Shown here in pieces: positions 15,441 through 54,598 of a stretch of 64,000 nt of DNA. The stretch covers positions 40,042-104,041 of the forward strand of contig JAQYET010000110.1 in NCBI GenBank assembly GCA_028723525.1. Reading direction: 5' to 3'. The notes beneath the pieces are model-generated. The model did not search any database. It was not told the DNA's origin and saw nothing but the letters and a program-made list of their open reading frames with translations. The position numbers and the translations under genes are program-made. Positions within the stretch are counted from its first letter, which is position 1; each line of letters starts with the position of its first letter. This DNA comes from Prevotellaceae bacterium (GTDB taxonomy: Bacteria; Bacteroidota; Bacteroidia; Bacteroidales; Bacteroidaceae).

Positions 15441-15840
15441 CAAAAATAATTCCAAACCACGCTTTCTTATCCTTTTATTTTATCGGTGTCTGCCAAAACT
15501 TTTTGTATATCATATATTGGGGTTGAATTTCCCGCTTGAAATAATACGCCGTTTGTGTGTTTCGGACACACGAGAATAAATCAAACAGCCAAACGATTTT
15601 TGCTTTATTCGTTTCTCACTGATTATCTATCATTTGGAGAAAGCATATCTTTGATGAAGTAAAATCGGCGAAATTGGTAGGTAAAATCGGCGATTTTGGT
15701 CAGCAATTTCGCCGATTTTGCTTTGTATTACATATCAAAACGCATAGCCGTTGGGCATGTATCAAGTGCCGGATGGGTATGAAGCAGGATTTTCCTCGGT
15801 GACTATCAATAAAAAAGGAAGCCTGTGAAGACTTCCCTTT
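15441..15840. other. Intergenic stretch between phoH and tRNA-Ser
   Basis: About 400 bp without a gene. It contains the 22-bp-periodic repeat at 15661-15719. The remaining sequence is A/T-rich; I see no convincing open frame, promoter or terminator in it apart from downstream sequence of the tRNA. Confidence 0.6.
15661..15719. repeat. Periodic palindromic intergenic repeat, copy A (3 units)
   Basis: Three 15-bp near-palindromes are centred at 15668, 15690 and 15712, exactly 22 bp apart: AAAATCGGCGAAATT, AAAATCGGCGATTTT and AATTTCGCCGATTTT. The first and third are exact inverted copies around the middle unit. The 7-bp spacers differ (GGTAGGT, GGTCAGC). Copies B and C are at 34424-34504 and 54511-54598. 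Confidence 0.9.
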
Positions 15841-15931
15841 TGGCGGAAGGTGAGGGATTCAAACCCCCGATACCCGAAAGGGGTATACCGGATTTCGAGT
15901 CCAGCGCGATCGATCACTCTGCCAACCTTCC
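15841..15931 (-). tRNA. tRNA-Ser (CGA)
   Basis: Read on the minus strand, a 91-nt class II tRNA with a GGAAGGT/ACCTTCC acceptor stem, anticodon loop CTCGAAA (anticodon CGA), a long variable arm (TACCC...GGGTA) and an encoded 3' CCA. The T-loop GGTTTGAATCC is normal. Confidence 0.95.
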
Positions 15932-15993
15932 TTGTAAATGTGAGTGCAAAGGTAACGCTTTTAGGCGATAACACAAAATTTTTCTTTCGTTTT

Positions 15994-16578
15994 TTATTCA
16001 AAAGACAGTTTGTCAAGACGCATCTTCAACTGCTCGGCAGCCGATTTCCTGATTGACAACGAGATGAGACAGGTGTTGTCATAGGTTTGTGACAGCACGC
16101 GCGGTTGCAGGTCTTTGACCACCTTCATCACCTTATCCATCATAACGTATGGGAACTCAAAATCGACTCTTTCTTCCACTATCTTGTCTGTTATCTCCGA
16201 ATTTCTTATGGCATCTGCCGCCGCCTCGCGATATGCCACTATCAATCCGCCCGTGCCGAGGTTTACTCCTCCGTAGTATCTCACCACCACGACGAGCACC
16301 TCCGTGAGTTCGTTGCTGTTTATCTGTCCGAGTATCGGTTTACCCGCCGTGCTGCTCGGTTCGCCGTCATCGTTAGCCCGAAACTCTGTCCGCTCCGCTC
16401 CAAGCATATAGGCATAGCACACGTGGCGGGCATCAAAATATTTTTTCCGATAATGAGCCAGCAACTGCTTCACATCATCAACGCTTTCCACATGATGCGC
16501 AAAGGCGAGGAACTTACTCCGTTTCTCGGTATAATATCCCTCGCCTTCTTTGCTTATTGTTCTGAAACTGTCTTCCAA
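15994..16578 (-). CDS. YigZ/IMPACT-family protein (UPF0029)
   Basis: This 194-residue member of the YigZ family has an N-terminal Impact domain (EKRSKFLAFAH, ARHVCYAYMLG, DDGEPSSTAGKPIL) and the usual C-terminal ferredoxin-like domain. Its molecular role in bacteria is uncertain; a link to translation or ribosome quality control is suggested by eukaryotic IMPACT. It starts 13 bp after the DUF1015 gene on the same strand. Confidence 0.92.
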   Translation of the reverse strand: MEDSFRTISKEGEGYYTEKRSKFLAFAHHVESVDDVKQLLAHYRKKYFDARHVCYAYMLGAERTEFRANDDGEPSSTAGKPILGQINSNELTEVLVVVVRYYGGVNLGTGGLIVAYREAAADAIRNSEITDKIVEERVDFEFPYVMMDKVMKVVKDLQPRVLSQTYDNTCLISLSIRKSAAEQLKMRLDKLSFE

Positions 16579-16591
16579 TATTGTTTGAATA

Positions 16592-17839
16592 TTAAGAAAG
16601 TTTGTGGATTACAAGACCTGAACGCAGCTTCGGTTCAAACCATGTTGCCTTAGGAGGCATGATTTTGCCGCTGTCGGCGATGTCCATAATCTGCTTCATA
16701 CTTACAGGGTATAATGCCAATGCCATGCGCATCTCACCGCTGTCAACGCGACGCTTCAGTTCGCCGAGTCCGCGCAGACCGCCCACGAAGTCAATTCTGT
16801 TGCTTGAGCGAAGGTCTTTTATTTCGAGAATTTCATCGAGGATAAGGCGACTTGAGATGTCAACGTCGAGAACTCCGATTGGGTCGTTGTTGTCGTACGT
16901 GCCTTCCTTTGCAATGAGCGAATACCACTTGCCGTCGAGATACATAGAAAACTCGTGGAGATTAGCCGGTTTGTAGATGTCAGCTCCCTTCAATTCTACG
17001 ATGAAGTTCTTGTTCAGTGCTTCAAGGAACTGCTCTGATGTCAAGCCGTTAAGGTCTTTCACAACACGGTTGTAGTCGAGGATGGTGAGTTGTGATGCTT
17101 GGAAACATACAGCCATGAAGTAGTTGTACTCTTCGTCGCCCTTATGGTTAGGATTTTGCTTCTGCTTCTCTGCGCCAACAAGGGCTGCCGCAGCAGAGCG
17201 GTGGTGTCCGTCGGCGATGTACAGTGCCGGCATGCCTGCGAACTGTTCTGTTATCACGTTGATGTCGTTAGCGTCAGAGATAACCCACAACTGATGACGG
17301 AAACCGTCAATCGGAGCGATGAAGTCATACTCCGGTTCGCCTGCAGCATATTTCTTTATCAGTTTATCAAGCACGTCGTTGTCAGGATATGCGAAGAATA
17401 CCGGCTCGATGTTTGCGTTGTTCACGCGAACATGCTTCATTCTGTCTTCTTCTTTGTCGCGACGAGTGAGTTCGTGCTTCTTGATTACACCCTTTGCATA
17501 GTCGTCACAATGTGCGCAAACCACGAGACCGAACTGTGTCTTGCCTTCCATTGTCTGTGCGTAAATGTAGTATTTCTCGGTGTCATCCTGAACCAGCCAA
17601 CCCTTCTCTTGGAACATCTTGAAATTCTCGGCTGCCTTTTCATAGACACGTGGATCGTATTCGCTTGTTCCTTCGGGGAAGTCTATTTCGGGCTTTATTA
17701 TATGATAAAGCGACTTCTCGTTGCCTTCTGCTTCGCTCCTTGCTTCTTCCGAGTTGAGCACGTCGTATGGGCGGCTCTCAACCTGTTCTACAAATTCTTT
17801 CGGAGGGCGAACGCCTTTGAATGGTTTTATTATTGCCAT
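16592..17839 (-). CDS. DUF1015 protein associated with serine biosynthesis
   Basis: This 415-residue member of DUF1015, a family found next to serA/serC in Bacteroidetes and Firmicutes and of unproven function, is cytoplasmic with no signal peptide. Recognisable blocks are the N-terminal PFKGVRPP, the central YIADGHHRSAAA with paired histidines, and the C-terminal FVGGLRGLGELKRRVDSGE. Here too it follows serC and serA on the same strand, separated from serA by a terminator-like hairpin that may let only part of the transcripts through. Confidence 0.88.
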   Translation of the reverse strand: MAIIKPFKGVRPPKEFVEQVESRPYDVLNSEEARSEAEGNEKSLYHIIKPEIDFPEGTSEYDPRVYEKAAENFKMFQEKGWLVQDDTEKYYIYAQTMEGKTQFGLVVCAHCDDYAKGVIKKHELTRRDKEEDRMKHVRVNNANIEPVFFAYPDNDVLDKLIKKYAAGEPEYDFIAPIDGFRHQLWVISDANDINVITEQFAGMPALYIADGHHRSAAAALVGAEKQKQNPNHKGDEEYNYFMAVCFQASQLTILDYNRVVKDLNGLTSEQFLEALNKNFIVELKGADIYKPANLHEFSMYLDGKWYSLIAKEGTYDNNDPIGVLDVDISSRLILDEILEIKDLRSSNRIDFVGGLRGLGELKRRVDSGEMRMALALYPVSMKQIMDIADSGKIMPPKATWFEPKLRSGLVIHKLS

Positions 17840-17911
17840 GATTTTAATTTTTATTGTTAAATAATAGATAATGAGTATCTTTTTATCCTTGATTTAACGG
17901 ACTAAAGATAA

Positions 17912-17947
17912 AAAGCCTCCCCCTTGCGGGAACAAGAAGGAGGCTTT
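17912..17947 (-). terminator. Terminator or attenuator between serA and DUF1015
   Basis: AAAGCCTCC (17912-17920) pairs exactly with GGAGGCTTT (17939-17947). On the minus strand the stem is followed by TTTTTATC. It lies 20 bp after serA and would end the serC-serA transcript, wholly or in part. Confidence 0.85.
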
Positions 17948-17967
17948 GATTTTTTGTCTTAAAAAGA

Positions 17968-18885
17968 TTATTTGTTTACTTGGAACTTGGTATCACCGTC
18001 CTTGAAGTAAGCATTGATTTGCTTTGCGGCTGCGATACCGGCATTGATGTTCGCCTCTGCTGTCTGTGCTCCCATCTTCTTAGGAGTACTGAAATAGCGA
18101 CCCTCGAACTTCATGAACTCTTCATCCTTGTCAGGCTTAATGTCGGTGACAAACTTGAGGTCTTCACGCTCGCCGAGCAGTTTGATGAGTTCAGCCTCGT
18201 TGATAACTTCCTTGCGCGCGGTGTTCACGAGGATACCGCCCTTGTTGAGTTTGTTAACGAGTGCGTAGTTGATGCTCTCCTTTGTCTCTGCAGTTGCAGG
18301 GATATGGAGCGAAACGATGTCGCAAGTCTCGAACAGGATGTCTTGAGAATCTACCGCCTTAACGCCTGATTGCTCAATAACTTCCTTCGGGCAGAATGCG
18401 TCGTATGCGTAAACTTCCATTCCGAAGCCCTTAGCAATGCGAGCCACGTTGCGACCAACATTACCGTAAGCGAGAATACCGAGCTTCTTTCCCATGAGTT
18501 CCGAGCCGCTCTTTCCGTTGTAGAAATTGCGCACGGCAAAAACGAGGAAACCGAAAACCAATTCCGCAACGGCATTTGAGTTCTGCCCCGGGGTATTTTC
18601 TGCGATTACGTTGTGTGCCGTAGCAGCAGCCAAGTCGATGTTGTCGTAGCCCGCACCTGCACGAACCACAATCTTCAACTGCTTTGCAGCATCGAGAACT
18701 TCTGCATCAACCTTGTCTGAGCGGATAATCATTGCATCAGCATCCTTTACAGCATCAAGCAACTGAGACTTCTCTGTGTATTTCTCAAGCAATACGAGTT
18801 CGTTGCCTGCAGCCTCAATTTCCTTTCTTATACCATTAACGGCTGCCGCTGCGAATGGCTTTTCTGTAGCAACTAATACTTTCAT
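17968..18885 (-). CDS. serA: D-3-phosphoglycerate dehydrogenase, short form
   Basis: It oxidises 3-phosphoglycerate to 3-phosphohydroxypyruvate, the first step of serine synthesis. The protein has the 2-hydroxyacid dehydrogenase fold with NAD-binding segment LAYGNVGRNVARIA. With about 305 residues it lacks the C-terminal ACT or ASB regulatory domain, so serine feedback through that domain is not expected. The start is placed at ATG 18885 (MKVLVATEKPF); the frame extends 11 codons further but into the intergenic gap after serC. Confidence 0.93.
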   Translation of the reverse strand: MKVLVATEKPFAAAAVNGIRKEIEAAGNELVLLEKYTEKSQLLDAVKDADAMIIRSDKVDAEVLDAAKQLKIVVRAGAGYDNIDLAAATAHNVIAENTPGQNSNAVAELVFGFLVFAVRNFYNGKSGSELMGKKLGILAYGNVGRNVARIAKGFGMEVYAYDAFCPKEVIEQSGVKAVDSQDILFETCDIVSLHIPATAETKESINYALVNKLNKGGILVNTARKEVINEAELIKLLGEREDLKFVTDIKPDKDEEFMKFEGRYFSTPKKMGAQTAEANINAGIAAAKQINAYFKDGDTKFQVNK

Positions 18886-18901
18886 AATCTGCTGTACTTT
18901 T

Positions 18902-19969
18902 TTAGTGATTTGCTTCAAATTCCTTCATACACTTCACGAGAGCCTCAACGCCTTCGATTGTCTGTGCATTGTAGCAGCTTGCACGGAAACCACCAACAGA
19001 ACGGTGTCCCTTGATACCTACCATGCCACGCTCGGTTGCGAAGTCGAAGAATGGCTTCTCAAGTTCTTTGTACTCGTCGTTCATTACGAAGCAGATGTTC
19101 ATCAGTGAGCGGTCTTCTTCTGCCACTGTGCCACGGAACAGTTTGTTGCGGTCAATTTCGTTGTAAACGATTTCTGCACGCTCCTTAGCCAACTTGTCCA
19201 TAGCAACCATACCACCATTTGCCTTGAGCCAACGGAGTGTCTCGAGTGCACTGTAGATAGGAACTACAGGAGGAGTGTTGAACATAGAACCCTTCTCTAC
19301 GTGTGTGCGATAGTCGAGCATCGTAGGAATTTCACGCGGAGCAAATCCGAGTTTGTCGGTCTTGAGGATTACGAGAGTAACACCTGCCATAGCGAGGTTC
19401 TTCTGTGCACCACCGTAGATAACATCATACTTAGCAACGTCGATCGGACGGCTGAAGATGTCTGAAGACATGTCGCAAATCATTGGAACGGGAACGTCCA
19501 AATCCTTACGTATTTCAGTACCGTAGATAGTGTTGTTGCTCGTAACGTGGAGGTAGTCAACGTCTGTCGGGCATGTCCAATCCTTAGGAATGTATGTGTA
19601 GTTTGCGTCGGCAGAAGAAGCTACTTCTACTACTTCACCAAACAGTTTAGCTTCTTTCATAGCTTTCTTTGCCCAAACACCGGTGTTCAGATAAGCAGCT
19701 TTCTTAATCAAGAAGTTGTAAGGGAGCATGCAGAACTCAAGCGATGCACCACCGCCGAGGAACAACACAGAGTATCCTTCCGGAATTTCGAGCAGTTCTT
19801 TAATCAAAGCTTCTGCCTCGTCAAGAACCGGCTGGAAATACTTAGCGCGGTGGCTTATTTCCATGAGTGACAGACCCGTGTCTTGGAATTCCAGACATTG
19901 TTTAGCAGTGTTTTCAATCACTTCACGCGGGAGCATTGAAGGACCGGCATTAAAATTGTACTTTTTCAT
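18902..19969 (-). CDS. serC: Phosphoserine aminotransferase
   Basis: This PLP enzyme converts 3-phosphohydroxypyruvate and glutamate to phosphoserine. The N-terminal FNAGPSMLP, the cofactor lysine in YGGAQKNLA and substrate residues around [12 protein letters not shown] are intact over 355 aa. It precedes serA by 16 bp. A TAACTTCG sequence about 45 bp upstream of the ATG is a likely, one-base-off -7 box. Phosphoserine phosphatase (serB) is not in the window. Confidence 0.96.
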
Positions 19970-20085
19970 TGTTACTTTAATTTTGGTTATTAGGTTAATG
20001 AATTTTCAATGGCGCGAAGTTACGCATTAAAAGTGATACGACCAAATATTTTGTGACAATTTACAAATAATATTTTTTTATTAGT

Positions 20086-21405
20086 CTATTTGACAAGTTC
20101 AACCACCGTTTTCATCCCCTTTATCTTTTCTCCTTGTGTTTTTTTGAGAACATCCCTACTGCATCTGCGCGAAATTGCAACATAGCAATAACGTTCTTTT
20201 ACGTCTATCTTCCCAATGTCTTTTTTGTCCATGCCGCCTTTTTGGCACAGGAAACCAACTATATCCACCTTTGAGATTTTGTCCTTCTTGCCTTTTCCTA
20301 TATATACCGTCACCATTTTGGGCAATGCCGGCGATGGTAGTTTGGCAGGAATGGTTAATTCAGAGTGGGTTCCTTTAACAAACTCCGGAATATATTCTTC
20401 GGGACCTAATATAAAATAGGTGTTACCGACAGCGTCCCAACGGGCGGTTCGCCCCACCCTATGTATGTAGGCATCTTCTCCTAAAGGCAAATGGTAATGC
20501 ACTATGTTCTCTACGTCGGGGATGTCGAGCCCTCGCGAGGCAAGGTCTGTCGCCACCAGCACGTTTGAAGAGCCGTTGCTGAACATATATAGAGCGGCTT
20601 CGCGCTCTATCTGTTCAAGTCCTCCGTGAAAAGCCGAAGTGGAAAAGCCCAGCGATTTGAGATATTCCTCTGTCCGTTCCACGCTTTCTCGGAAATTAAG
20701 GAATACGATTGTGCTCCTGTCGCCGAAACTACGCAACAGGCATTGCAGGGTGTCGAGTTTGTCCTTATTCGGACTTCTCACTATGTTTATGTCCACCCTG
20801 TCGGGTACTTGCTCGTCATCTGTAAGGAAATCTATCCTTGACACCTTCCTGATATTAACGAAAGAAGGTATTTCCTCGGCATCTGTGGCAGACATAAGCA
20901 CTCGTCTTTTGACATTGCCGAGCCGCTCTATGGCTTTTGACATTTCGTTGCGGAAGCCCATTTCAAGGCATTTGTCAAACTCGTCAATAACAATCCATTC
21001 CACGTTCTGCACACTAACGTTTTCTTTGTCCAAATGGTCGTTGAGCCGCCCCGGTGTGGAGAATATTATATGGGGATTGATTTTAACTATCTGCCTATGC
21101 TCATCCATCGTTGGTCTGCCACCGTAAAGAGCCATTGAACGCAGTCCCGTGCCCATGTTTGCCAGCACTTGTTGAGACTGCAACGCCAACTCCCTGCCGG
21201 GAACAATTACCACTGCCTGAAGTTCATCGGTATCAGCCTTCAGTCGCTCCGTTATCGGCAACAGGTAAGCCAAAGTCTTTCCGCTGCCGGTAGGCGACAA
21301 CACCAGAACATCGTTGGGCGAATAAAGTATAGCTTTGGCAGTCTCCTGCTGCATCATGTTAAGTTCCTCAATGCCGAGTTTGCTCAATATCTTTTCAGTA
21401 TCCAT
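20086..21405 (-). CDS. DbpA-like DEAD-box RNA helicase
   Basis: This ATP-dependent RNA helicase probably acts in ribosome assembly. RecA-like domain 1 has motif I SPTGSGKT, a motif II that reads DEFD instead of DEAD, and motif III SAT. Domain 2 has ATDLASRGLDIP and HRVGRTAR. The last 75 residues resemble the DbpA RNA-binding domain that docks on 23S rRNA hairpin 92. The length of 439 aa fits. It sits upstream of serC on the same strand with a 116-bp gap. Confidence 0.9.
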   Translation of the reverse strand: MDTEKILSKLGIEELNMMQQETAKAILYSPNDVLVLSPTGSGKTLAYLLPITERLKADTDELQAVVIVPGRELALQSQQVLANMGTGLRSMALYGGRPTMDEHRQIVKINPHIIFSTPGRLNDHLDKENVSVQNVEWIVIDEFDKCLEMGFRNEMSKAIERLGNVKRRVLMSATDAEEIPSFVNIRKVSRIDFLTDDEQVPDRVDINIVRSPNKDKLDTLQCLLRSFGDRSTIVFLNFRESVERTEEYLKSLGFSTSAFHGGLEQIEREAALYMFSNGSSNVLVATDLASRGLDIPDVENIVHYHLPLGEDAYIHRVGRTARWDAVGNTYFILGPEEYIPEFVKGTHSELTIPAKLPSPALPKMVTVYIGKGKKDKISKVDIVGFLCQKGGMDKKDIGKIDVKERYCYVAISRRCSRDVLKKTQGEKIKGMKTVVELVK

Positions 21406-21410
21406 AGTTG

Positions 21411-21418
21411 CAAAATTA
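21411..21418 (-). promoter_or_regulatory. -7 box directly before the DbpA-like gene
   Basis: TAATTTTG on the minus strand ends only 5 bp before the ATG (TAATTTTG-CAACT-ATG). If used, transcription would start at or within a few bases of the start codon, giving an almost leaderless mRNA. Confidence 0.5.
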
Positions 21419-21472
21419 CTAAATTTATTTCATTTCTTCACCATTGACGTGTTTTTTATCGTTTATTTTTCA

Positions 21473-21480
21473 TATTTTTG
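21473..21480 (+). promoter_or_regulatory. -7 box of the folK-like/M64/TPR genes
   Basis: TATTTTTG lies 36 bp before the ATG of the FolK-like gene. The region 19-21 bp upstream is T-rich (TTTTTT) but does not contain a clear TTTG. Confidence 0.5.
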
Positions 21481-21516
21481 CAAACGTATTCCTACTTTCA
21501 TGTCAGAAAATAAGAA

Positions 21517-21915
21517 ATGGAAAAGAAGAAACTATTGTTTGCCATTGGCACCAACTCCTCTTTGTCAGACGAACGACTTATGTTGATGAAGGCTTGTGTT
21601 TTCAGGCTTTTTCAAGACGATATACGTTTCACGTCGCTAAAAAAGACTGCCCCGATAGGTATCGATTCGCTGGAATTTACGAATTGTCTCGGCATGGCAT
21701 ACACGGCATTACCGCTTCCAATCGTAAAGGAAGAGTTCAAGAGAATAGAGCAGGTATGTGAAGACACAGCCGATAAGCGACTTGCGAATATCATCGAGAT
21801 GGATATTGACATTCTGGAGTATGACGGCAGGCGTTACCACGAAAAGGACTGGAGCCGCGGCTATATCATAGAAATGCTCAATGAGGCAGAATGTCTGAAA
21901 CAAGAATTATTATGA
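21517..21915 (+). CDS. Short FolK-like (HPPK-fold) protein
   Basis: This 132-residue protein is similar to 6-hydroxymethyl-7,8-dihydropterin pyrophosphokinase, which makes a folate precursor. The N-terminal LLFAIGTNSS and the metal-binding pair Asp96/Asp98 (MDIDIL) agree with HPPK. It is about 30 residues shorter than usual, and the arginine/tryptophan-rich catalytic loop (RPWGPR-type) is not recognisable. It may be a diverged HPPK or a non-catalytic relative. It is the first gene of a run with an M64 peptidase and a TPR protein, neither of which is a folate gene. Confidence 0.65.
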   Translation: MEKKKLLFAIGTNSSLSDERLMLMKACVFRLFQDDIRFTSLKKTAPIGIDSLEFTNCLGMAYTALPLPIVKEEFKRIEQVCEDTADKRLANIIEMDIDILEYDGRRYHEKDWSRGYIIEMLNEAECLKQELL

Positions 21916-21938
21916 ATAAATAACAAATAAAATCGATT

Positions 21939-23207
21939 ATGAGAACACTGTTTATTTTATTGTTGTGCGTGGTTGCAAATACAGCCGGGGCACAAAACTT
22001 TGATGAGTATTTCGAAGACAAGACCCTGAGGATTGATTATATCTTCTCCGGTAACAAAGCGTCGCAGGAAATTTCCCTTGACTGTCTGAACCTTTCTTCG
22101 CGTTGGTATGGCAAACGTAAACGTCTTTCGGAAGTTCCGGTAGAGGGGAATGGAACCATCACGGTTAAAGACCGCGCAACATCAAAGGTTATTTACAAGA
22201 ACTCTTTCTCCACATTATTTCAGGAATGGCTCACCACAGAGGAGGCCGGAGTCACCACAAAGGCCTTCGAGAACGTATTCCTTGTGCCTATGCCTAAGCA
22301 GCCTGTTGACGTTACCGTAGAACTGAGGAATAACAGACGTGAAACGATAGCCAAGATGACACACGCCGTTGACCCGACAGACATCTTGATAAGGGATATT
22401 GGGGAACACAAGACAAAGTATGAAACAATGCTAAAAGCGGCTGACCCGGAGAACTGTATAAACATTGCATTCGTTGCCGAAGGTTACACAGAAGCAGAGA
22501 TGCCGATATTCCTCGAAGACGTGAACAAATCCCTCGGTGCACTATTCGCTCACGAACCGTTCAAGAGCAGAAAGGCTTCGTTCAACATTATCGCCGTGGA
22601 AGCTGCATCTGAAGACAGCGGTACAAGTGTTCCGCGTGATGGTATATGGAAGCGCACGGCACTCGGCTCTCACTTCGATACGTTCTACAGCAGCAGATAT
22701 CTCACAACACTGCATCTCAAGAAATTGCATGATGTGCTTGCCGGACTTCCCTACGAGCATATCATAATACTCGTGAATACCGAAGTGTATGGCGGTGGCG
22801 GTATCCTCAACTCCTACAATCTCTCGGCAGCCCACAACCCAAAGACCTTGCCTGTGGTTGTGCATGAGTTCGGACATAGTTTCGCCGGACTGGGAGACGA
22901 ATATGCTTACGAGAACGAGGCGATACCGATGTACCCGACAGATGTTGAACCTTGGGAACCGAACTTAACCACTATGGTTGATTTCAAGTCGAAATGGGCG
23001 TCGTTAATAGATAAGAACACACCCGTCCCGACACCTGCAAATGAGAAGTACGCAGACAAAGTGGGAGTCTTTGAAGGTGCGGGATATAGCCTTAAAGGAG
23101 TGTATCGCCCGATGCAAGACTGCCGTATGCGTACCAATGAAAATCCTGATTTCTGCCCGGTGTGCCGGCAGGCTATTGACAGACTCATCAGTTTCTATGT
23201 AGAATGA
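21939..23207 (+). CDS. Secreted M64-family metallopeptidase
   Basis: This exported zinc peptidase belongs to the IgA-peptidase M64 family. It has a signal peptide (cleavage near GAQN, residue 20), an N-terminal beta-sandwich (M64_N) domain to about residue 150, and a catalytic domain with HEFGHSFAGLGDEY, where His309 and His313 are zinc ligands and E310 the catalytic base. The substrate in commensal Bacteroidales is mostly unknown, so IgA cleavage is not claimed. It is 23 bp after the FolK-like gene and overlaps the TPR gene by 4 bp. Confidence 0.9.
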   Translation: MRTLFILLLCVVANTAGAQNFDEYFEDKTLRIDYIFSGNKASQEISLDCLNLSSRWYGKRKRLSEVPVEGNGTITVKDRATSKVIYKNSFSTLFQEWLTTEEAGVTTKAFENVFLVPMPKQPVDVTVELRNNRRETIAKMTHAVDPTDILIRDIGEHKTKYETMLKAADPENCINIAFVAEGYTEAEMPIFLEDVNKSLGALFAHEPFKSRKASFNIIAVEAASEDSGTSVPRDGIWKRTALGSHFDTFYSSRYLTTLHLKKLHDVLAGLPYEHIIILVNTEVYGGGGILNSYNLSAAHNPKTLPVVVHEFGHSFAGLGDEYAYENEAIPMYPTDVEPWEPNLTTMVDFKSKWASLIDKNTPVPTPANEKYADKVGVFEGAGYSLKGVYRPMQDCRMRTNENPDFCPVCRQAIDRLISFYVE

Positions 23208-32834: not shown

Positions 32835-34388
32835 TTGCGACGTTCAACAAGTTTTCTTGAAAGGGCAAAGTTGTATCCGCTGGCGAAAGTGGCTGTCCTG
32901 CTCATCGTTGGGATAGTTCTCGGGAGTCGTTTTGCATTTTCACTGCCGGTCACAGTCTCGTTGCTCGTCGCATTTCTGCTTGTATCTCTCCTCTCTCATC
33001 GCAACCTCATCGTAAGAGACATTTTCTTTTACATCGGCGTTGTCACCTTCGGTGTGGTGCTTCATAACGACACCTCCAACCGCCTTTCCGTTCCTTCTTC
33101 ATCTTCATCGAAGTTCCATGCCGTGCTCCTGTCACAGCCAAAAGAGCATGGCAAGGTTATAAGTTGCGACATCATTGTCACATCGGGCGAAATGACCGGC
33201 AAAAGATTGCGGGCAAGCATACTGCGAGACACCATATATAATAGGTACAAGAGTTTGGGCGTTGGCAGCGGTATCGTTGCCAATGCGGTGACAGAACCGC
33301 CAAAGAACTTCAAGGAAGGCAATTTCGACTACGCCACTTTCTTGAAGAGCCGGGGCATTTCGGGCACGGCATTCATCATGGCAGACAAGTGGAAACCTAA
33401 GCGACTGCCACTCGCCTCGCTGTCAACTCTCGACCTGCTGCAGCTGAAAGCCTTGGAATATCGCGAGCAACTTGTAGGCAAATACCGCATTTCGGGATTG
33501 AACGACACCGGACTTGCCATTGTGTCGGCAATCACCTTGGGCGACAAGTCGATGTTAGACGCCCAAATACGCGACCTGTTCTCCGTCACCGGTGCCTCCC
33601 ACGTTCTTGCCATGTCGGGACTTCACCTCAGCATCCTCTATCTTTTTCTCACCTACGCTTGGGGCAGACGCAAGCGGTGGGTTGCCGTGTCGCTTGTCAA
33701 CATTGTTCTCGTGTGGGCGTTTGTATTCATTGCCGGGATGCCGGTATCTCTGGTTCGTTCAGCCATAATGCTCAGCGTCTATTGCATGCTCGACGTGATA
33801 CATCGCAACACCCAACCGCTCAACACATTGGCTTTGGCAGCAATCATTGTCTTGATTGGCAATCCGATGAGCATTTTCGACATCGGTTTTCAGATGTCTT
33901 TCATGGCAGTACTGTTCATCCTGCTTCTCTGTCCGGGATTGCTTGCTGCGGGTTGGCGTTTCGCAGCTTTCCGTTTCGCCCTCGTCAGGGTCTGCTGGAA
34001 TTTCGTTGCGGTGTCTTGCGTGGCACAGTTGGCTGTCGCTCCGCTCGTGGCACACTATTTCGGGCGTGTGTCTTGCTACTTCTTGCTTGCCAACGTTGTC
34101 GTGATACCTTCCACCTACGTTGTCCTTGTCTGTGCCATGTTGCTGCTCCTCGTTCCGTTCTCCGCCATACAGCATACCATTGCCGAGGTGCTGTCGTTCA
34201 CTGTAAACGCCACCTACAACTCGCTTTCGTGGCTGGCATCGCTGCCCGGAGTGAGTGTAGAGAACGTCAGACCGGGCAGCCTCGGCTTAGTCATTATCTA
34301 TATATTGCTCGTTGCAGGCAGCCTCTACTTCAACGCGATGATAAGCCGAACCGCCTTCAGAGAGCGTCTTTCGACTGCCGTTTCATAG
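32835..34388 (+). CDS. ComEC/Rec2-family DNA uptake channel protein
   Basis: This 517-residue polytopic inner-membrane protein of the ComEC family carries single-stranded DNA across the membrane in transformation. It has N-terminal helices, an OB-like DUF4131 part, and the competence domain opening GASHVLAMSGLHLSI, followed by about eight helices. The C-terminal MBL-fold domain of longer ComEC proteins is absent, as in many Bacteroidetes. The only start is TTG 32835, just after an in-frame TAA. Frame and context support it, 21 bp after the PurF-like gene. Confidence 0.85.
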   Translation: MRRSTSFLERAKLYPLAKVAVLLIVGIVLGSRFAFSLPVTVSLLVAFLLVSLLSHRNLIVRDIFFYIGVVTFGVVLHNDTSNRLSVPSSSSSKFHAVLLSQPKEHGKVISCDIIVTSGEMTGKRLRASILRDTIYNRYKSLGVGSGIVANAVTEPPKNFKEGNFDYATFLKSRGISGTAFIMADKWKPKRLPLASLSTLDLLQLKALEYREQLVGKYRISGLNDTGLAIVSAITLGDKSMLDAQIRDLFSVTGASHVLAMSGLHLSILYLFLTYAWGRRKRWVAVSLVNIVLVWAFVFIAGMPVSLVRSAIMLSVYCMLDVIHRNTQPLNTLALAAIIVLIGNPMSIFDIGFQMSFMAVLFILLLCPGLLAAGWRFAAFRFALVRVCWNFVAVSCVAQLAVAPLVAHYFGRVSCYFLLANVVVIPSTYVVLVCAMLLLLVPFSAIQHTIAEVLSFTVNATYNSLSWLASLPGVSVENVRPGSLGLVIIYILLVAGSLYFNAMISRTAFRERLSTAVS

Positions 34389-34423
34389 TCTTTCATTCCA
34401 CGGCAGTTACCATATCGCAGGGC

Positions 34424-34504
34424 AAATTCGCCGATTTTGGCAAACAATTTCGCCTATTTTACTCTGTAATTTCGGCGATTTTACTTTGCAAATTCGCCGA
34501 TTTT
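34424..34504. repeat. Periodic palindromic intergenic repeat, copy B (4 units)
   Basis: Four 15-bp units are centred at 34431, 34453, 34475 and 34497, again exactly 22 bp apart: AAATTCGCCGATTTT, AATTTCGCCTATTTT, AATTTCGGCGATTTT and AAATTCGCCGATTTT. The first and last are identical direct copies. Spacers are GGCAAAC, ACTCTGT and ACTTTGC. The array starts 35 bp past the comEC stop and ends 65 bp before the menI promoter. Confidence 0.9.
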
Positions 34505-34568
34505 GCAAAGAGAAACATTTCCTACCATAGGTTTTATGATTACCTTTCGGGATAAATAAGGATATATT

Positions 34569-34599
34569 TTTGAAATATCAAATTATTATGCTACATTTG
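34569..34599 (+). promoter_or_regulatory. Promoter of menI-menF-menD
   Basis: TTTG (34569-34572), a 19-bp spacer and TACATTTG (34592-34599) match the Bacteroidetes consensus. The leader to the menI ATG is about 75 nt. Confidence 0.75.
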
Positions 34600-34677: not shown

Positions 34678-35103
34678 ATGAATGTCGAAAAGATAAAGGA
34701 ACTAATCGAAAAGCAGCCTAACCTGTCAACAATTCTCGGCATGAACTTTATCAGTACGCCCGAAGACGACATGTGCATGGCAACGATGAAAGTGGATGAG
34801 CGCAACCGGCAGCCATTCGGTTTCCTGAGTGGCGGGGCATCGCTGGCACTTGCCGAAAACCTTGCCGGTGTGGGGTCGAGTTCCATTTGTCCGGGGAAGA
34901 TATGCGTGGGAGTGAGTGTAAGCGGCGAGCATGTGAAAGCTGTGGCAGAGGGCGATACGGTGACTGCAAGGGCAACACTTGTGAGCAAGGGTCGGAAACT
35001 CCATGTATGGGACGTGCGGATAACCGACACCGACGGGAATTTGATTTCCACAGTGCATGTCACCAACTATGTCATAGAGCCCAAGAAAGGTGATAAAGAA
35101 TGA
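34678..35103 (+). CDS. menI: Hotdog thioesterase, probable 1,4-dihydroxy-2-naphthoyl-CoA hydrolase
   Basis: This 141-residue PaaI-type hotdog-fold thioesterase has the helix motif LSGGASLALAENLAG, with the catalytic glutamate at about residue 61 and the usual glycine-rich turn. Its stop overlaps the menF start (ATGA), and menD follows. The position points to hydrolysis of DHNA-CoA in menaquinone synthesis, the MenI step. The fold call is firm; the substrate is from context. Confidence 0.87.
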   Translation: MNVEKIKELIEKQPNLSTILGMNFISTPEDDMCMATMKVDERNRQPFGFLSGGASLALAENLAGVGSSSICPGKICVGVSVSGEHVKAVAEGDTVTARATLVSKGRKLHVWDVRITDTDGNLISTVHVTNYVIEPKKGDKE

Positions 35104-47021: not shown

Positions 47022-47417
47022 TTACTGCCGGGTGGTTATTTTCGAGAAATAAACGGTGTGATAGGCTATCATCACGATATAGTAAACCATGAACACCAGT
47101 ACGTAAGGGAGCATAGCATCCCTGCCGACCACCAAGAAACAGACGAACAGAGTGAAAAGTGCCAACACCATACGCAGTCCTGATACTACAGAGTAGAGAG
47201 TAGTTTGCGACTCCCTGTTACTTTTCATTATCCACCTCCACAAGAATGCGAACGATGTTAGGAAAACCACAGAGAAACCTACGCTTACCAATATCGGAAC
47301 ATTCATGTTCCATTCGGGACGAAGCAAAGAAAGCAACACACCTACGATTGTAAGTACTGCAACTACTACAGTGCCTATTATCACATAGCGTTTGGCAACT
47401 TTATCAACGTCCATCAT
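47022..47417 (-). CDS. Small membrane protein in the atp operon (AtpI-like position)
   Basis: This 131-residue protein has four predicted membrane helices (about 11-30, 39-62, 78-98 and 104-124). It overlaps atpC by 4 bp and is followed by atpB. No family motif is certain. Its size, topology and position suggest an AtpI-like or assembly role in placing the c ring, but this is inference. Confidence 0.75.
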   Translation of the reverse strand: MMDVDKVAKRYVIIGTVVVAVLTIVGVLLSLLRPEWNMNVPILVSVGFSVVFLTSFAFLWRWIMKSNRESQTTLYSVVSGLRMVLALFTLFVCFLVVGRDAMLPYVLVFMVYYIVMIAYHTVYFSKITTRQ

Positions 47418-47656
47418 ATCTCTACGCAGATATTGACCACGTTCTTCTTCACCGACACGAAGCCGTCCTTAACCTCCAGAGTTTTACTTCCTTCAGAGGT
47501 ACGGTATGTAACAGTGCCGCGTTCCAATGACGAGATGATGGGGGCATGGTGCACGAGAACTTCAAATTCGCCCACCGTACCCGGAACCTTCACGCTCTCT
47601 ACCTCTCCGTCAAATTCCACCCTTTCAGGCGAAACGATTTTAAGTTTAAGCATCAA
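47414..47656 (-). CDS. atpC: ATP synthase epsilon subunit, short form
   Basis: This 80-residue protein consists only of the N-terminal beta-sandwich (LKIVSPERVEFDGEVESV, GEFEVLVHHAPI). The C-terminal two-helix inhibitory domain of E. coli epsilon is missing, so the usual epsilon brake on ATP hydrolysis should be absent. The stop overlaps the next gene. Confidence 0.93.
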   Translation of the reverse strand: MMLKLKIVSPERVEFDGEVESVKVPGTVGEFEVLVHHAPIISSLERGTVTYRTSEGSKTLEVKDGFVSVKKNVVNICVEI

Positions 47657-47702
47657 TATTTATCTTTTTCTTTATTCTTTTCAAACCTACGTACACAAAA
47701 GG

Positions 47703-49232
<1,530 letters not shown>

Positions 49233-49269
49233 TTATATGTATTTAAGAGTTAAGCAAGTAATAATGGTG

Positions 49270-49301
49270 CAAAATTACTTAAATAATTTTTCTTGAACAA
49301 A
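49270..49301 (-). promoter_or_regulatory. Promoter of the ATP synthase operon
   Basis: TTTG (complement of 49298-49301), a 20-bp spacer and TAATTTTG (complement of 49270-49277), 40 bp before the atpD ATG. This is a full consensus promoter driving nine genes. Confidence 0.8.
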
Positions 49302-49354
49302 TTTTTCACTTATAAAATCTCCGTTATGTGTTTTTTGGCACCTGAAAAGTGTAT

Positions 49355-50332
49355 TTATATACTTAATTCATCAAGAACTTTTATCAGTTTTTTATCAAAA
49401 GGCTTGTCGCTTCTTATTGCCTCGTTGAACGGAACATAGACCACTTCGTTAAACCTCACGCCTACCATAATGTTCCTTTGTCCCTGCATGATTGCCTCAA
49501 TAGCCCCTACCCCGGTGCGTGCAGCCAGCACCCGGTCGTGAGCCGTCGGTCGTCCGCCTCGCTGCAGGTGTCCGAGTATCGACACGCGCACGTCATAGTC
49601 GGGAAATTCTTTCCTCACCCTGTCGGCATAATAGAGCGCACCGCATTTCTTGCTTTCCGAAACAATCACGATGCAACTTTTCTTCGATTTCCTTATTCCT
49701 CTCTTCATGAAGCGCGACAACTGGTCAACGTCTGTAGAATCTTCAGGTATTATGGCTGCCTCTGCTCCGCTTGCTATGGCACTGTTCTGCGCAAGGAAGC
49801 CGGCGTCCCGCCCCATCACCTCCACGAAGAATATTCTTTCGTGGCTCTGCGCCGTGTCTCTTATCCTATCGACACACTCCATGATGGTGTTCATCGTGGT
49901 GTCATAACCTATTGTGGAGTCGGTGCCATAGAGGTCGTTATCTATGGTTCCGGGCAGCCCGATGCAACAAACGTCATATTCTTCTGCGAATATCCTTGCA
50001 CCCGTAAGCGAGCCGTTACCGCCTATAATCACAAGCGCATCAATGCCCGCCTTCACCATATTGTCATAGGCTTTCTGCCTGCCTTCGGGTGTCATGAATT
50101 CGCTCGAGCGTGCCGATTTCAAGATAGTGCCACCCATCATTATTATACCTGAGACGTTCTCCGTGGTGAAGTCGCGTATCTCTCCGTTTATCAAGCCGTC
50201 CCAGCCACGATAAATACCTTTTATGTTAAATCCGTTGTATATTCCGGCACGTGTCACCGCACGTATTGCCGCATTCATTCCCGGCGCATCGCCACCTGAT
50301 GTCAGCACGCCGATAGTCTTTATCCTATTCAT
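49355..50332 (-). CDS. pfkA: ATP-dependent 6-phosphofructokinase
   Basis: It phosphorylates fructose 6-phosphate. The ATP site begins [15 protein letters not shown], the phosphoryl-transfer segment is [14 protein letters not shown] with the catalytic aspartate, and the fructose site is the EVMGRDAG region. The glycine at GGDAPG and the 325-residue length are typical of ATP-dependent PfkA. It lies 23 bp after the NhaD-type gene. Confidence 0.96.
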
Positions 50333-50355
50333 TATTTACCTTTTTTACAATAATA

Positions 50356-51753
50356 CTATAATGGCATCATACAAAGAAAAGCAATACCTATAAACCATGC
50401 AATCACCGAAACCCAGCCCACGTTCTTCATATACCAACCCACGTGTATGCGTTCCATCTTCATCAATGCCAAACCACTGAGCGAACCCACGAGCATGAAG
50501 TTGCCACCTATTGCCGTGCTATATGCTATTACCTTCCAGTAGTTTCCATTCTGAACAAACGACATCATGTAGCCGGCATCTGCCCATTCTGTTATCGGCT
50601 CGGCTCCTACAACCGGATAGAGTGAGATGAAACTCAACGAGGTGGCAAACGTGTCAACAATGCTGCTCATCACTGCCGACAGTGCCCCAAGCACCCAAAT
50701 GTTGTGCACATGATAGTCGATGTTTCGCGCGAGCCAGTCAACCGCCCCTGTTTCACACACCACTCCCACGGCGAGCATCATGCCCATAACAAAGAGCATC
50801 ATCTGAATTACGCCGTATTGGAGTGCTCGCGGCATCCTGCGCTGTATCATTTTATCCACGTCCATCAACTTGCGGTTGACTATTTCGTTAACAATCCACA
50901 ATAGCGAGAGCACACAAAGCGCACCGATAAACGGACTTAACTTTGTTATATTATGGAATGTCGGGATAAACCAAAGCCCGCCTATTCCCACGAAAAGCAT
51001 CATTATGCGCTGCCATCTCGACAGATTTGTATCGTCGCCACGGTAAGGCATTGCCCACTCTATGTCTATCCTTTCGGGCAACATCCTGCCAAGCACGAAC
51101 ACCGGGAGTGCACACGACACTATACATGGGACAGCCAGAGAAGCAGAGAAGCGCGTAGCCGTCACTGCTTCGCTGCTCCACAACAGAAGCCCGGTGGGGT
51201 CTCCGATTACAGTCAGTGCTCCACCGCAATTCGCAGCAATCACTATCGCGCAACCGTATATCATGCGGTGGCGGCGGTTGGGTATCAAGGAGTGCATCAC
51301 AACGAGCATCATTGTCGTAGTGGTGATATTGTCCAGATTTGCCGAAAGAAGGAACGTGATACATGTCATCATCCACAGCAGTTTCCTGCTGTTGCGAGTC
51401 CGCATCAGTTCGGCAAGGAAATCGAAACATCCGTTGTTGTTAAGTATCTCCACTATGGTCATCGTGGAAAGCAGGAACAGCACAATCTCGGCTCCCTTTC
51501 CAACATATTTCAGGAATATGTTCTGCGCGATGTAGTGCTTCACAGCTGTACTCGTAGGCACCGCACCGCCGAGAAAATCGGTATATTCGGAGGGATGTTG
51601 GCTCATCACGAAATCCGTTCCATAACATATATACAGCACCCACCCTACTGCGGCTGCAAAGATAGCAATCGCCGTCTTATTGACTTTTGTAAGGCTCGCA
51701 GTGGCTATCAAAAGATAACTCAAAATCAGTATTGCTGCAATTATCAGTGTCAT
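50356..51753 (-). CDS. NhaD-type sodium:proton antiporter
   Basis: This 465-residue inner-membrane protein of the ion transporter superfamily has about 12 helices. The family motif SANLDNITTTTMM and the second half GDPTGLLLW and SSIVDTFATSLSF match NhaD proteins, whose polar and charged helix breaks bind sodium. It probably exports Na+ or Li+ in exchange for protons. It is followed by pfkA on the same strand. Confidence 0.87.
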   Translation of the reverse strand: MTLIIAAILILSYLLIATASLTKVNKTAIAIFAAAVGWVLYICYGTDFVMSQHPSEYTDFLGGAVPTSTAVKHYIAQNIFLKYVGKGAEIVLFLLSTMTIVEILNNNGCFDFLAELMRTRNSRKLLWMMTCITFLLSANLDNITTTTMMLVVMHSLIPNRRHRMIYGCAIVIAANCGGALTVIGDPTGLLLWSSEAVTATRFSASLAVPCIVSCALPVFVLGRMLPERIDIEWAMPYRGDDTNLSRWQRIMMLFVGIGGLWFIPTFHNITKLSPFIGALCVLSLLWIVNEIVNRKLMDVDKMIQRRMPRALQYGVIQMMLFVMGMMLAVGVVCETGAVDWLARNIDYHVHNIWVLGALSAVMSSIVDTFATSLSFISLYPVVGAEPITEWADAGYMMSFVQNGNYWKVIAYSTAIGGNFMLVGSLSGLALMKMERIHVGWYMKNVGWVSVIAWFIGIAFLCMMPL

Positions 51754-51761
51754 TTCAACCG

Positions 51762-51792
51762 CAAAAGTAGCACTTTCTTGGCTAACAGCAAA
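51762..51792 (-). promoter_or_regulatory. Promoter of the NhaD-type gene and pfkA
   Basis: TTTG (complement of 51789-51792), 19 bp and TACTTTTG (complement of 51762-51769). The -7 box ends only 8 bp before the ATG, so the mRNA leader is very short. Confidence 0.7.
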
Positions 51793-51822
51793 GTTTTATC
51801 TTGAATTTTTCAAATTCTTCTT

Positions 51823-52803
51823 TCAAATTCTGCCCGTAAGTTTCTTCAGGGTGAAGTATATTTCTTCCTGCAGCCGAAACATTTTCCACGAGAAACGCAT
51901 CGGCATATATCCGAACTTTCTCTTCAACGACGGTTCTATTCTGGCTGTCTCTATCGTTGTCCAGACGCGTTTCATTTCATTCAAGCCAAACTTCGCATCT
52001 TCTGCCGGAAGTAGTTTACGGTTAAGGAAATAGAACATATACGTGTCAACCAATACGAGCCACCTCACCTTCTCATATATACGCATCACCTCTTCGCCCA
52101 CGCCGAAAGACACGAGTTGCTTTTTCATCGACTCGTTTGCCCGGATATAGTCGAACCTTCTCACGCTCGGTTTGTGGGTTACGGACAGTTCGTTCTTGTA
52201 GTAATAGTACACTCCCTCGCAGCACCTTACCTCTCGCGAGTGATAATAGTGTGTGCGCGTGGTATTGTCGTCGCTGTATGAGCGGCAGGTATCATCGTAT
52301 GGGAATTGTTTGTGGAGTGTAGTCCGTGTGACATAGCATCCGTGTATCTTCCACGTGAGCGATGCAACGAAAGCCTCGTAGCCTGTCATCACTTCAAACT
52401 GAGACATGGGATAGTCTTCTTCCTTCTCTCCTTCCACCGTCTTCACCGTCAGCAGCACGCAGTCTGTTTCCCTGTGGCTTTCAAACACGCCCACGGCTTT
52501 CTCCAGTGCGTCGGCAGACAGACGGTCGTCGCAGTCGAGAAAGCAAACATAGTCGCCCGTAGCCTCTGCCAGTCCGCGGTTTCTTGCCACCGCCTGTCCG
52601 CGGTTCTCCGGCTGTCTGAAAACCTTTATCCTGTTGTCGCGGCGGGCATACTCGTCGAGCAGCGATGCGGAATTGTCGGTCGAACAGTCGTCAACACACA
52701 GCACCTCGATGTCTCCATGTGTCTGCGACAGCAACGAGTCGAGACATCGCCGCAGTGTCGTCTCACCGTTATAGACAGCCACGAGTACGCTAACCTTTGC
52801 CAT
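51823..52803 (-). CDS. Family 2 glycosyltransferase
   Basis: This 326-residue GT-A enzyme begins VSVLVAVYNGETTLRRCL and has the nucleotide-sugar Asp in VDDCSTDNS and a metal-binding FLDCDDR (DxD). The C-terminal half is lineage-specific. It probably adds a sugar to a cell-surface glycan at the cytoplasmic face. The start overlaps the end of the flippase gene by 14 bp, so the two are coupled. Confidence 0.9.
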   Translation of the reverse strand: MAKVSVLVAVYNGETTLRRCLDSLLSQTHGDIEVLCVDDCSTDNSASLLDEYARRDNRIKVFRQPENRGQAVARNRGLAEATGDYVCFLDCDDRLSADALEKAVGVFESHRETDCVLLTVKTVEGEKEEDYPMSQFEVMTGYEAFVASLTWKIHGCYVTRTTLHKQFPYDDTCRSYSDDNTTRTHYYHSREVRCCEGVYYYYKNELSVTHKPSVRRFDYIRANESMKKQLVSFGVGEEVMRIYEKVRWLVLVDTYMFYFLNRKLLPAEDAKFGLNEMKRVWTTIETARIEPSLKRKFGYMPMRFSWKMFRLQEEIYFTLKKLTGRI

Positions 52804-54304
52804 GTTTCTTTTTCGTTTGCGGCTTAAACCTGTTCAATAACTTGCCGCTGACGATTTCCCACAGCCCGGTATTCCGTCTGATTACGAACAGCGAAAAGAG
52901 CAGACTTACAAAAAACATCAGTGCCCCGGCAACCCAATACAACCACCCTTGCGAGAAAAACGTAAGTGCAAAAGCGCATACTCCGAGCGGAGTCTGCACA
53001 AGCAGGAATTTCACTATCCTGTTGCTGAACACGTATGAATATCTTATCCTAAGATAGAATATTGTGAACAGCACGTCGATAATTCCCACAACCGTAACGG
53101 CAGCACCTGCCCCGGTTAGCCCGCAGCGGTCGTAGAGCAGTGCCGTGGCAATGAAAAGCAGCACGTCATAGACGGCTTCGAGCAGAAGATAGGAGCGCGA
53201 GTCGCCGCGCGAGAGCGGAAGATACTGCATCGGCAACACCACTGCGCGGCAGTATAGCGATAGTGCCATTATCTGCATCATGCCGATAGACGAAACGAAC
53301 TTCGAACTGAGCAACAGCGGAACTATTATGGGCATGAAGACTATGAATGCCACTATCATGGGCGAGATGAGCAGCAGCAACACCTCTATCTGGTTGTTTA
53401 TGGCTATGTTGCGGGCAGCTGTGTCGCAGGTGATTGCCGACAACCGCGGAAAATAGTCAGACTCCATTGCCGAGAACACCATGCCCGCATAGGTCAGCGT
53501 CATCACATAACCGGCATTATACAAGCCCACCGTGTCGAGTGCTCCATAGTTGTTAAGCAGCGAGCGTATGCCGAAATCCACGCCACTGCCCATTATTCCT
53601 GCCGAAACGAAAGCGATGCCGAGCTTTATCATTCCCGCGCCCTTGCCGAGCGTTTCTTTCGAGAAGTCGAACTTTAAAGGATAGAACCGGAGCGAATGTC
53701 TGATAGTGAGCAGCATCTGTATCACCGCAACCACCACAAGCGAAGGGATGATAGCCATTTCGCCCCATACGTAATACATTGGCACGGTGGTTATGAGAGC
53801 GAGGAAGATATTGAGCGAAGACACGGCAGCAAGTCCGCGCAACTGTTGCGTGCCTTTGAGTATGGCGGTTTCTCCTCCGGTGATTGCCATCATGCCGACT
53901 ATCGGCGAGAGCAGTACGAAGTGCAGGGTATGGTCGCCCCAACTGAACGCAACGTTGTCAACCAACGGTCCGGCAAGCATACACACGAGCATGCCCAACA
54001 GTGCCACAAGGATGCTCCACGACCTCACTATGACGATGTTTCGCTCCACCTCGCGAGAGTCGTTCTTGCTGAATGCCTCCGAAATGTTCTTTACGGCACT
54101 TATCTGAATACCGAAGTTGGTGGAGTCGGACACCAGTTTTATGGTGGAATTGAACAGCGAAACGAGCCCCATTCCTTCAGGACCGAGTATCAACGCCACG
54201 AATTTGTTGCGTATAAGGGCAAAAAGGATATTGATTACCTGTATGCCGCCAAATATGCCGGTATATTTCAATATATGATTATAACTGCCCTTATTGTCCC
54301 CCAT
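52790..54304 (-). CDS. Wzx-type polysaccharide flippase
   Basis: This 504-residue inner-membrane protein has about 14 helices and belongs to the MOP/Wzx exporter superfamily. The N-terminus has GGIQVINILFALIRNKFVA and FNSTIKLVSDSTNFGI, a pattern common to O-antigen and oligosaccharide translocases. It would flip lipid-linked sugar units for capsule or O-antigen. It is the first gene of a pair with the GT2 gene and is divergent from a second glycosyltransferase pair. Confidence 0.88.
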   Translation of the reverse strand: MGDNKGSYNHILKYTGIFGGIQVINILFALIRNKFVALILGPEGMGLVSLFNSTIKLVSDSTNFGIQISAVKNISEAFSKNDSREVERNIVIVRSWSILVALLGMLVCMLAGPLVDNVAFSWGDHTLHFVLLSPIVGMMAITGGETAILKGTQQLRGLAAVSSLNIFLALITTVPMYYVWGEMAIIPSLVVVAVIQMLLTIRHSLRFYPLKFDFSKETLGKGAGMIKLGIAFVSAGIMGSGVDFGIRSLLNNYGALDTVGLYNAGYVMTLTYAGMVFSAMESDYFPRLSAITCDTAARNIAINNQIEVLLLLISPMIVAFIVFMPIIVPLLLSSKFVSSIGMMQIMALSLYCRAVVLPMQYLPLSRGDSRSYLLLEAVYDVLLFIATALLYDRCGLTGAGAAVTVVGIIDVLFTIFYLRIRYSYVFSNRIVKFLLVQTPLGVCAFALTFFSQGWLYWVAGALMFFVSLLFSLFVIRRNTGLWEIVSGKLLNRFKPQTKKKHGKG

Positions 54305-54510
54305 AGTCTGAACTTACTAACGCATAAATCGCATTTTTATTACTTTATGCCGCCTTTTTTCATAAAAAATCCTGCTATGGTTTGCAAAATATTTTGAGGC
54401 AATGCCGGGCTTTACTTCACCCGCTTGACAATGCCCGCCACCGAGGTTTGGCACTATCCTGCCTGCGGTTTGCGATATAATGCAGCACATCGGGATATGT
54501 ATCAAAATGT
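54305..54510. other. Left part of the intergenic region between divergent glycan operons
   Basis: The whole gene-free stretch runs from 54305 to 54801. This part is A/T-rich without a recognised gene. The repeat array at 54511-54598 follows, then about 170 bp of unassigned sequence, then the promoter of the plus-strand pair. Confidence 0.5.
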
Positions 54511-54598
54511 AAAACCGCCCAAATTGCAAAGTAAAATCGGCGATTTTGCTGACCAAAATCGGCGAAATTGGTCGGCAAAATCGCCGATTTTACTTTGC
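54511..54598. repeat. Periodic palindromic intergenic repeat, copy C (4 units, 73-nt palindrome)
   Basis: Units are centred at 54518 (degenerate, AAAACCGCCCAAATT), 54540 (AAAATCGGCGATTTT), 54562 (AAAATCGGCGAAATT) and 54584 (AAAATCGCCGATTTT), all 22 bp apart. In addition 54526-54549 and 54575-54598 are exact 24-bp inverted copies, so 54526-54598 is a palindrome with only three mismatched pairs in 36. Confidence 0.92.

Follow-up and report, generated by a model that had tools for sequence, protein, structure and literature searches.

Intergenic palindrome arrays with an exact 22-bp period recur across a Prevotellaceae genome and carry species-specific cores

Three intergenic regions in a 64,000-nt window (the whole stretch of DNA analysed here) from a Prevotellaceae genome each carry a run of short near-palindromes, raising the question of what these arrays are and what keeps their period fixed. 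An earlier note on this sequence had offered three answers: selection on spacing, for example by proteins bound along one DNA face; a defined RNA fold; or a REP/BIME-like mobile repeat. The three loci it described, with 3, 4 and 4 units whose centres are exactly 22 bp apart, were found again at their coordinates, save that the third array ends at 54591 rather than at 54598. The arrays and their extended elements are as follows:

Array 1, 15661..15719, no strand: three 15-bp units (15661-15675, 15683-15697, 15705-15719), one of the 7 three-unit arrays among 80; a PhoH-like ORF (14389-15435, minus strand) lies on one side and a tRNA (15844-15931, minus strand) on the other.
Array 2, 34424..34504, no strand: four 15-bp units starting at 34424, 34446 (core TCGCCTA), 34468 and 34490, between a ComEC-like ORF (32835-34388, plus strand) and a thioesterase-like ORF (34678-35103, plus strand).
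Extended 217-bp element of array 2, 34356..34572, no strand: the four strong boxes are flanked on either side by three weaker ones that keep the 22-bp period, according to the profile of 73 four-unit arrays.
Array 3, 54511..54591, no strand: four 15-bp units starting at 54511 (degenerate), 54533, 54555 and 54577, between divergent ORFs (52790-54304, minus strand; 54802-55791, plus strand).
Extended 217-bp element of array 3, 54443..54659, no strand: placed with the same base profile as the array 2 element.

Units in the window share the core TCGSCGA, flanked left and right by three A/T letters, and two of the eleven are degenerate (54511, AAAACCGCCCAAATT, and 34446). Matches to the unit with two mismatches or fewer number 21 in the window, a figure that includes both strands and so counts most units twice, against a mean of 3.1 and a maximum of 9 in 100 shuffles.

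The arrays are one genome-wide element, larger than the three window loci. In the host genome (G000, 2.804 Mb in 151 contigs, 99.98% complete) a pair of units linked at 22 bp occurs 395 times with up to two mismatches and 259 times exactly, with a count of 0 in the reversed control in both cases. The array census covered 1.247 of the 2.804 Mb including the window (44%, stretches with N skipped) and returned 80 arrays at an exact 22-bp period, 73 with four units and 7 with three, one of the latter beginning at a contig end; no array of two or of five or more units occurred among them. Extrapolation from this sample gives ~180 copies in the whole genome. An 87-bp scoring matrix placed 80 sites above +46, with the next best at -43.5 and the best reversed-control score at -35.6; with nothing between +46 and -43 in the 1.247-Mb sample, no decayed or partial copies were detected. 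A two-unit matrix applied outside the arrays performed no better than on the reversed control. The earlier note had been ready to call the family a coincidence if units at 22-bp spacing showed no excess over shuffled sequence or were equally common in coding regions. Linked pairs are in excess and 0 of the 80 arrays overlap a gene called by the analysis's own simple gene finder, so its placement of the arrays outside genes extends to the genome-wide sample.

In the base profile of the 73 four-unit arrays the signal extends 69 bp to either side, where T, G and C recur in the same 22-bp phase. The whole element thus spans ~217 bp and comprises ten boxes, of which four are strong. Mean information is 0.31-0.33 bits in the flanks vs 0.04-0.05 further out, and the left flank and the reverse-complemented right flank, computed separately, agree with r 0.917. 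The 7-bp spacers do vary, as the earlier note had it (130 different forms among 233), although within a constraint it had not described, the pattern R-S-NNN-S-Y between T and A. Spacers and flanks diverge strongly between copies, and the cores do not. The A/T letters flanking each core form A-tracts every 11 bp in which TpA is nearly absent (2/281 in left tracts vs 50 expected, 2/275 in right tracts vs 56 expected), and a wedge model predicts a bend of 83 degrees per 90 bp vs 41.5 in shuffles and flanks.

Folded as RNA, the three window arrays score well (z -8.2, -3.3 to -3.6 and -10.5) because their consensus is symmetric. Complementarity about the array centre averages 31.5 of 44 pairs in true arrays vs 33.1 in chimeras built from halves of different arrays (z -5.3), and 0 of 73 arrays exceed the 95th percentile of the chimeras; around other centres no difference beyond noise was seen. 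Within units, matching palindrome-arm pairs are depleted (41 vs 62.5 expected). Long hairpins were rejected on the first of these results and local 15-nt hairpins on the second, and the proposal of a defined RNA fold fails with them. The tracts on either side of a spacer keep their strand sense (P ~1e-17), which together with the lack of selection for hairpins fits double-stranded DNA read by a protein.

Arrays are distributed across the chromosome independently of gene function or orientation, lying outside genes, in all three orientation contexts and at even spacing. The flanking genes could be classified for 79 arrays and are codirectional at 37 of them, convergent at 22 and divergent at 20; in the background set, all 335 intergenic regions no shorter than 150 bp, the corresponding numbers are 182, 48 and 105. 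Convergent regions are thus over-used (22 of 48, P 0.0004), and the median distance from an array is 94 bp to a stop codon and 231 bp to a start. Adjacent arrays within a contig are separated by gaps (n=71) of 5.5 to 35 kb (minimum 5,515 bp), with a mean of 14.4 kb and a CV of 0.46, and no gap is shorter than 5 kb. Random choice of intergenic regions gave a CV of ~0.87 and 18-19 gaps below 5 kb; in six settings of 2,000-4,000 simulations each, none was as low as observed.

Prevotella koreensis, represented by a single 2.685-Mb contig, shows the same short-gap exclusion as the host, though sampled incompletely. Only 2 of 93 gaps between its 94 array clusters fall below 5 kb vs 14.9 expected under uniform placement, a cruder null than the intergenic one used for the host. 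The gap CV is only slightly low (0.82 vs 0.99 expected, P 0.03), as expected because the two pattern searches used to place its arrays miss some of them.

The geometry is common among relatives and the palindrome is not. Among 301 genomes of the family the exact host core occurs in only two, the host and G270; in a scan of named genomes the matches listed include P. koreensis and several Prevotella MAGs, among them rumen ones, whose arrays comprise 2 to 4 units according to the caller used for the host. Searching with the core masked recovered 10 arrays in 100 kb of G136, with the core AGCAWTGCT, and four in 60 kb of G206. An agnostic detector, which knows only palindromy, similarity and lag and recovers 28/28 host arrays on two contigs, was applied to 20 further genomes of the genus and gave 52 hits at lag 22 vs 26 in total over 24 other lags (~1 each). 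Some of the 52, in G056 and G150, are tandem repeats, exact or direct, of a different class. Without P. koreensis and G270 the figures are 28 at lag 22 vs 20 at other lags. At least one lag-22 hit was found in 11 of the 20 genomes, in a scan that left out G122 and G192 (2-3 kb fetched) and covered only 5-11 kb of G258, G220 and G281. Outside the genus, two of five genomes from other genera of the family had hits (G003, G002), and nine genomes from other families of the order (360 kb) gave one borderline hit and no lag-22 excess.

Palindromes recovered in this way include TGAAYAGGCYRTTCA in G033, TGGAACNNNGTTCCA in G178 and GGCAGCGGCCGCTGCC in G246, and some species-specific cores lack A-tracts. 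With exact tandem repeats dropped, unit profiles in most genomes with enough arrays fall on both sides from four strong units to background. Whole-genome counts are similarly specific: the G136 core occurs 308 times in G136, 49 times in G005 and 2-16 times in eight others; the G033 core 124 and 98 times on the two strands of G033 and 0-2 times in nine others; for the P. koreensis core the counts are 96 and 94, against 0 in the control. G005 carries its 49 copies of the G136 core (control 5) and yet yielded no array in 60 kb, as did an equal length of G075.

We compared positions between genomes at testable sites, defined as intergenic regions of 100 bp or more whose two bordering genes are neighbours in each of the genomes compared. 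All 3 testable arrays of P. koreensis are matched by a host array (17 regions have neither), as are all 4 of G270 (2 regions are host-only and 12 have neither), so that 7/7 testable arrays of these two genomes lie at orthologous host sites. None of 2 arrays is matched between the host and G136 (69% median protein identity), where 2 regions have neither. Matched sites in close relatives and none in G136 indicate inheritance across short evolutionary distances, with gain or loss of arrays once the distance is greater. In aligned orthologous arrays the core letters differ, suggesting that the core may change across a whole genome while the sites partly stay in place. One host array sits in a ~300-bp block absent from G270.

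From the geometry, copy number, intergenic position, even spacing, lack of decayed copies, species-specific cores and partial positional conservation, we infer that the arrays may be double-stranded sites for a chromosome-wide DNA-binding protein. We give this reading, covering both binding and function, an even chance of being right, since both the protein and its task are putative. Each unit would be bound by a symmetric, probably dimeric, sequence-specific protein, four copies of which would sit side by side on one helix face, two turns apart, on DNA that may be bent or wrapped, with weaker contacts extending to ~217 bp. Four symmetric units on one face at two turns would explain the fixed period, the fixed number, the variable spacers and the absence of hairpin selection. 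Selection on spacing with proteins on one DNA face, as first suggested, agrees with a period of exactly 22 bp in arrays of four (73/80) or three (7/80) units, 0/80 of them in genes. The recurrence of arrays at 5-35 kb (mean 14 kb) would reflect selection on the spacing itself; even spacing, indifference to gene orientation and the lack of relics point to a task at the scale of the chromosome and not to local gene control; nucleoid organisation, topological domains and segregation are possible examples. Species-specific cores at a common geometry suggest that the specificity of the protein changes and the assembly does not; recognition would shift between species, with the sites following, partly in place.

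Several observations count against the binding-site reading. No binding protein was found, the ParB HTH family giving a single match in the host. G136 shares none of its two testable sites, which shows site turnover; for two host arrays G270 has no counterpart; a block such as the ~300 bp missing there is also expected of a mobile element; G005 and G075 are array-free in the 60 kb sampled from each; arrays within one genome carry different palindromes in G002 and G056; and the convergent excess is also predicted by a role at transcription ends.

The arrays might instead set supercoiling domains as sites of gyrase or some other general DNA-wrapping protein, without a dedicated sequence-specific partner. 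The A/T tracts every 11 bp, a predicted bend twice that of shuffles, the ~217-bp length and the preference for convergent gene ends would all suit such a protein, and the array spacing is near the 10-15 kb of supercoiling domains. A near-invariant TCGSCGA here and quite different cores in other species, however, argue for specific recognition, and we regard general wrapping as unlikely.

A miniature mobile element (REP/BIME, REPIN or MITE) is another reading: the arrays are numerous, intergenic, palindromic and species-specific, and the ~300-bp presence/absence block and the 0/2 sites common to G136 are in keeping with movement. Target immunity of its transposase over several kb, a property of Mu, Tn3 and Tn7, would yield an exclusion zone and with it even spacing. 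Against this, no Y1/RAYT transposase (PF01797) was found in the host, the family being present in 4 of 11 genomes searched and undetected in 6 further ones, and no Tn3 transposase in 10/10 genomes searched, host included; a search for Mu-type transposase also gave no match and carries no weight, as its control matched nothing anywhere. Decayed or partial copies were not detected; the parts that diverge between copies are the spacers (130/233 different) and flanks, not the cores; and arrays at orthologous sites have different cores. A search of 2.9 million viral contigs for the exact host pattern found none, and array DNA had no match among phages and one chance hit among plasmids (E 0.7). As to MITE-type ends (terminal inverted repeats with target-site duplication and clean empty sites), the observations are flanks symmetric on average and the one presence/absence block, in relatives too distant to define ends. 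The REP/BIME-like repeat of the earlier note therefore finds little in its favour, given the missing Y1/RAYT in the host, the lack of decayed copies, the exclusion distance of at least 5.5 kb and the 7/7 orthologous sites, and we consider mobility of any such kind improbable.

Operators of one large regulon would be highly unlikely. Cooperative operators often repeat at two helical turns, and the 20 divergent and 37 codirectional arrays of the 79 could reach promoters. The 22/79 between convergent genes have no promoter there, however, the even chromosomal spacing is not expected of operators, and the three window arrays have neighbour genes of unrelated kinds; that all three gene orientations occur does not fit promoter control. 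A role at the RNA level, as tandem hairpins, as bidirectional terminators or at 3' ends, is likewise highly unlikely, for although the window arrays fold well, convergent ends are favoured and stop codons lie nearer than starts, the folding follows from the symmetric consensus, chimeras pair as well or better, matching arms are depleted, 20/79 arrays lie between divergent genes, and the arrays have no Rfam match at the gathering threshold.

If the binding-site reading is correct, the arrays have partial counterparts among known systems. Noc, MatP/matS and SlmA are chromosome-organising proteins with dispersed sites that are single short palindromes, and we know of no chromosome-organising protein with fixed four-unit, 22-bp, mutually excluding sites that change between species. 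CdbA of Myxococcus xanthus is reported to have 569 ChIP peaks, to bind as a likely tetramer, to bend DNA and to have only a modest effect on transcription; its site is described as a degenerate direct repeat of moderate specificity that also occurs inside genes (PMC7156744). The arrays resemble the sites of these four proteins in being many across the chromosome, with bending likely, and differ in their fixed four-unit 22-bp form, in keeping a minimum distance from one another and in having a different core in each species.

REP/BIME elements are extragenic, species-specific palindromes in more than 100 copies, associated with RAYT and said to co-evolve with a protein (PMC2817692, PMC3733652). 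The arrays share the extragenic, palindromic, numerous and species-specific character and differ in a host without detected RAYT, in complementarity that is not kept, in a fixed unit number, in mutual exclusion and in lacking, in consensus and base profile, a GTAG- or CGTC-type head by the palindrome as defined in those accounts (PMC3733652, PMC2817692). The BrickBuilt MITE of Porphyromonas gingivalis is an intergenic array of 23-nt repeats with the consensus AGAYCATARTATCCTCTCRTRTG, direct, variable in number and bounded by IS-like terminal inverted repeats (PMC4596501). It is likewise a Bacteroidales element made of intergenic repeat arrays, although the repeat sequence is unrelated.

ParR/parC and iteron arrays consist of ~20-22-bp repeats bound side by side, differ between relatives and number one or a few per replicon. 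The ~22-bp period and the sequence that varies by relative are common to both; ~180 evenly spaced copies are not. For the form of the element, namely fixed four-unit, 22-bp, mutually excluding, species-specific arrays, no description was found in the open-access literature searched, a body that leaves most subscription journals outside; should the function be nucleoid organisation, the functional kind is already known and only the form would be new.

If the spacing and species-specific cores hold, this bacterial family, common in the gut and mouth, would possess an undescribed layer of chromosome architecture that keeps a ruler-like period and has a partner protein waiting to be found. The elements are short, numerous and easily recognised, and they open questions about bacterial chromosome domains, self-recognition and the rapid co-evolution of a protein with ~180 sites. 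A further possibility, speculative and rather doubtful, is a dispersed, evenly spaced, centromere-like identity code in which a four-dimer site every ~10-40 kb would be read by a fast-evolving protein, each species having its own palindrome. The role of such a code could be in distributed segregation or looping, or in telling self DNA from incoming DNA that lacks arrays; self-DNA marking would explain the absence of the host core from viral, phage and plasmid collections.

Two further ideas found no support. A second ParB/Noc-like protein as partner was set aside, the ParB HTH family (the sole family searched) having a single HTH_ParB match in the host. Long gaps between arrays had been considered as inserted foreign DNA, but the longest (C23, 35 kb) holds ribosomal, RNA polymerase, EF-Tu and MreB/MreC genes; one phage-integrase match is also present among the 22 proteins scanned. 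Finally, three arrays in G301 have near-identical neighbours and look like local duplications.

The longest array-free stretch of the host genome sample contained genes for ribosomal proteins, RNA polymerase, EF-Tu and rod shape. Ten intergenic regions 150 bp or longer were free within it; highly transcribed DNA may exclude arrays.

C23:7140-42163 (host contig), longest array-free stretch

Across the whole comparison genome G005, AAAGCAWTGCTTT, the array palindrome core of the relative G136, was counted 49 times versus 5 for the control, yet despite these copies no tetrad was detected in 60 kb. Another genome, G056, carried exact 22-bp tandem repeats along with several near-identical copies of a four-unit array, which could represent a mobile version of the element.

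L143:3986-4160, L143:4285-4417 and several places in stretches L142/L143, 22-bp tandem repeats or near-identical four-unit arrays

A GACAKAAAGACAWAA-type repeat run adjoins an array in both Prevotella relative P. koreensis and the host. Judged by eye, its spacing in both is also near 22 bp, and it is possibly a second 22-bp family.

L063 about 5990-6130, GACAKAAAGACAWAA-type run (spacing judged by eye)
L097 about 5154-5884 (host C34:85154-85884), GACAKAAAGACAWAA-type run (spacing judged by eye)

Two small RNA genes adjoin each other in the window.

59625-59731, minus strand, Bacteroidales small SRP RNA
59551-59624, adjoining tRNA
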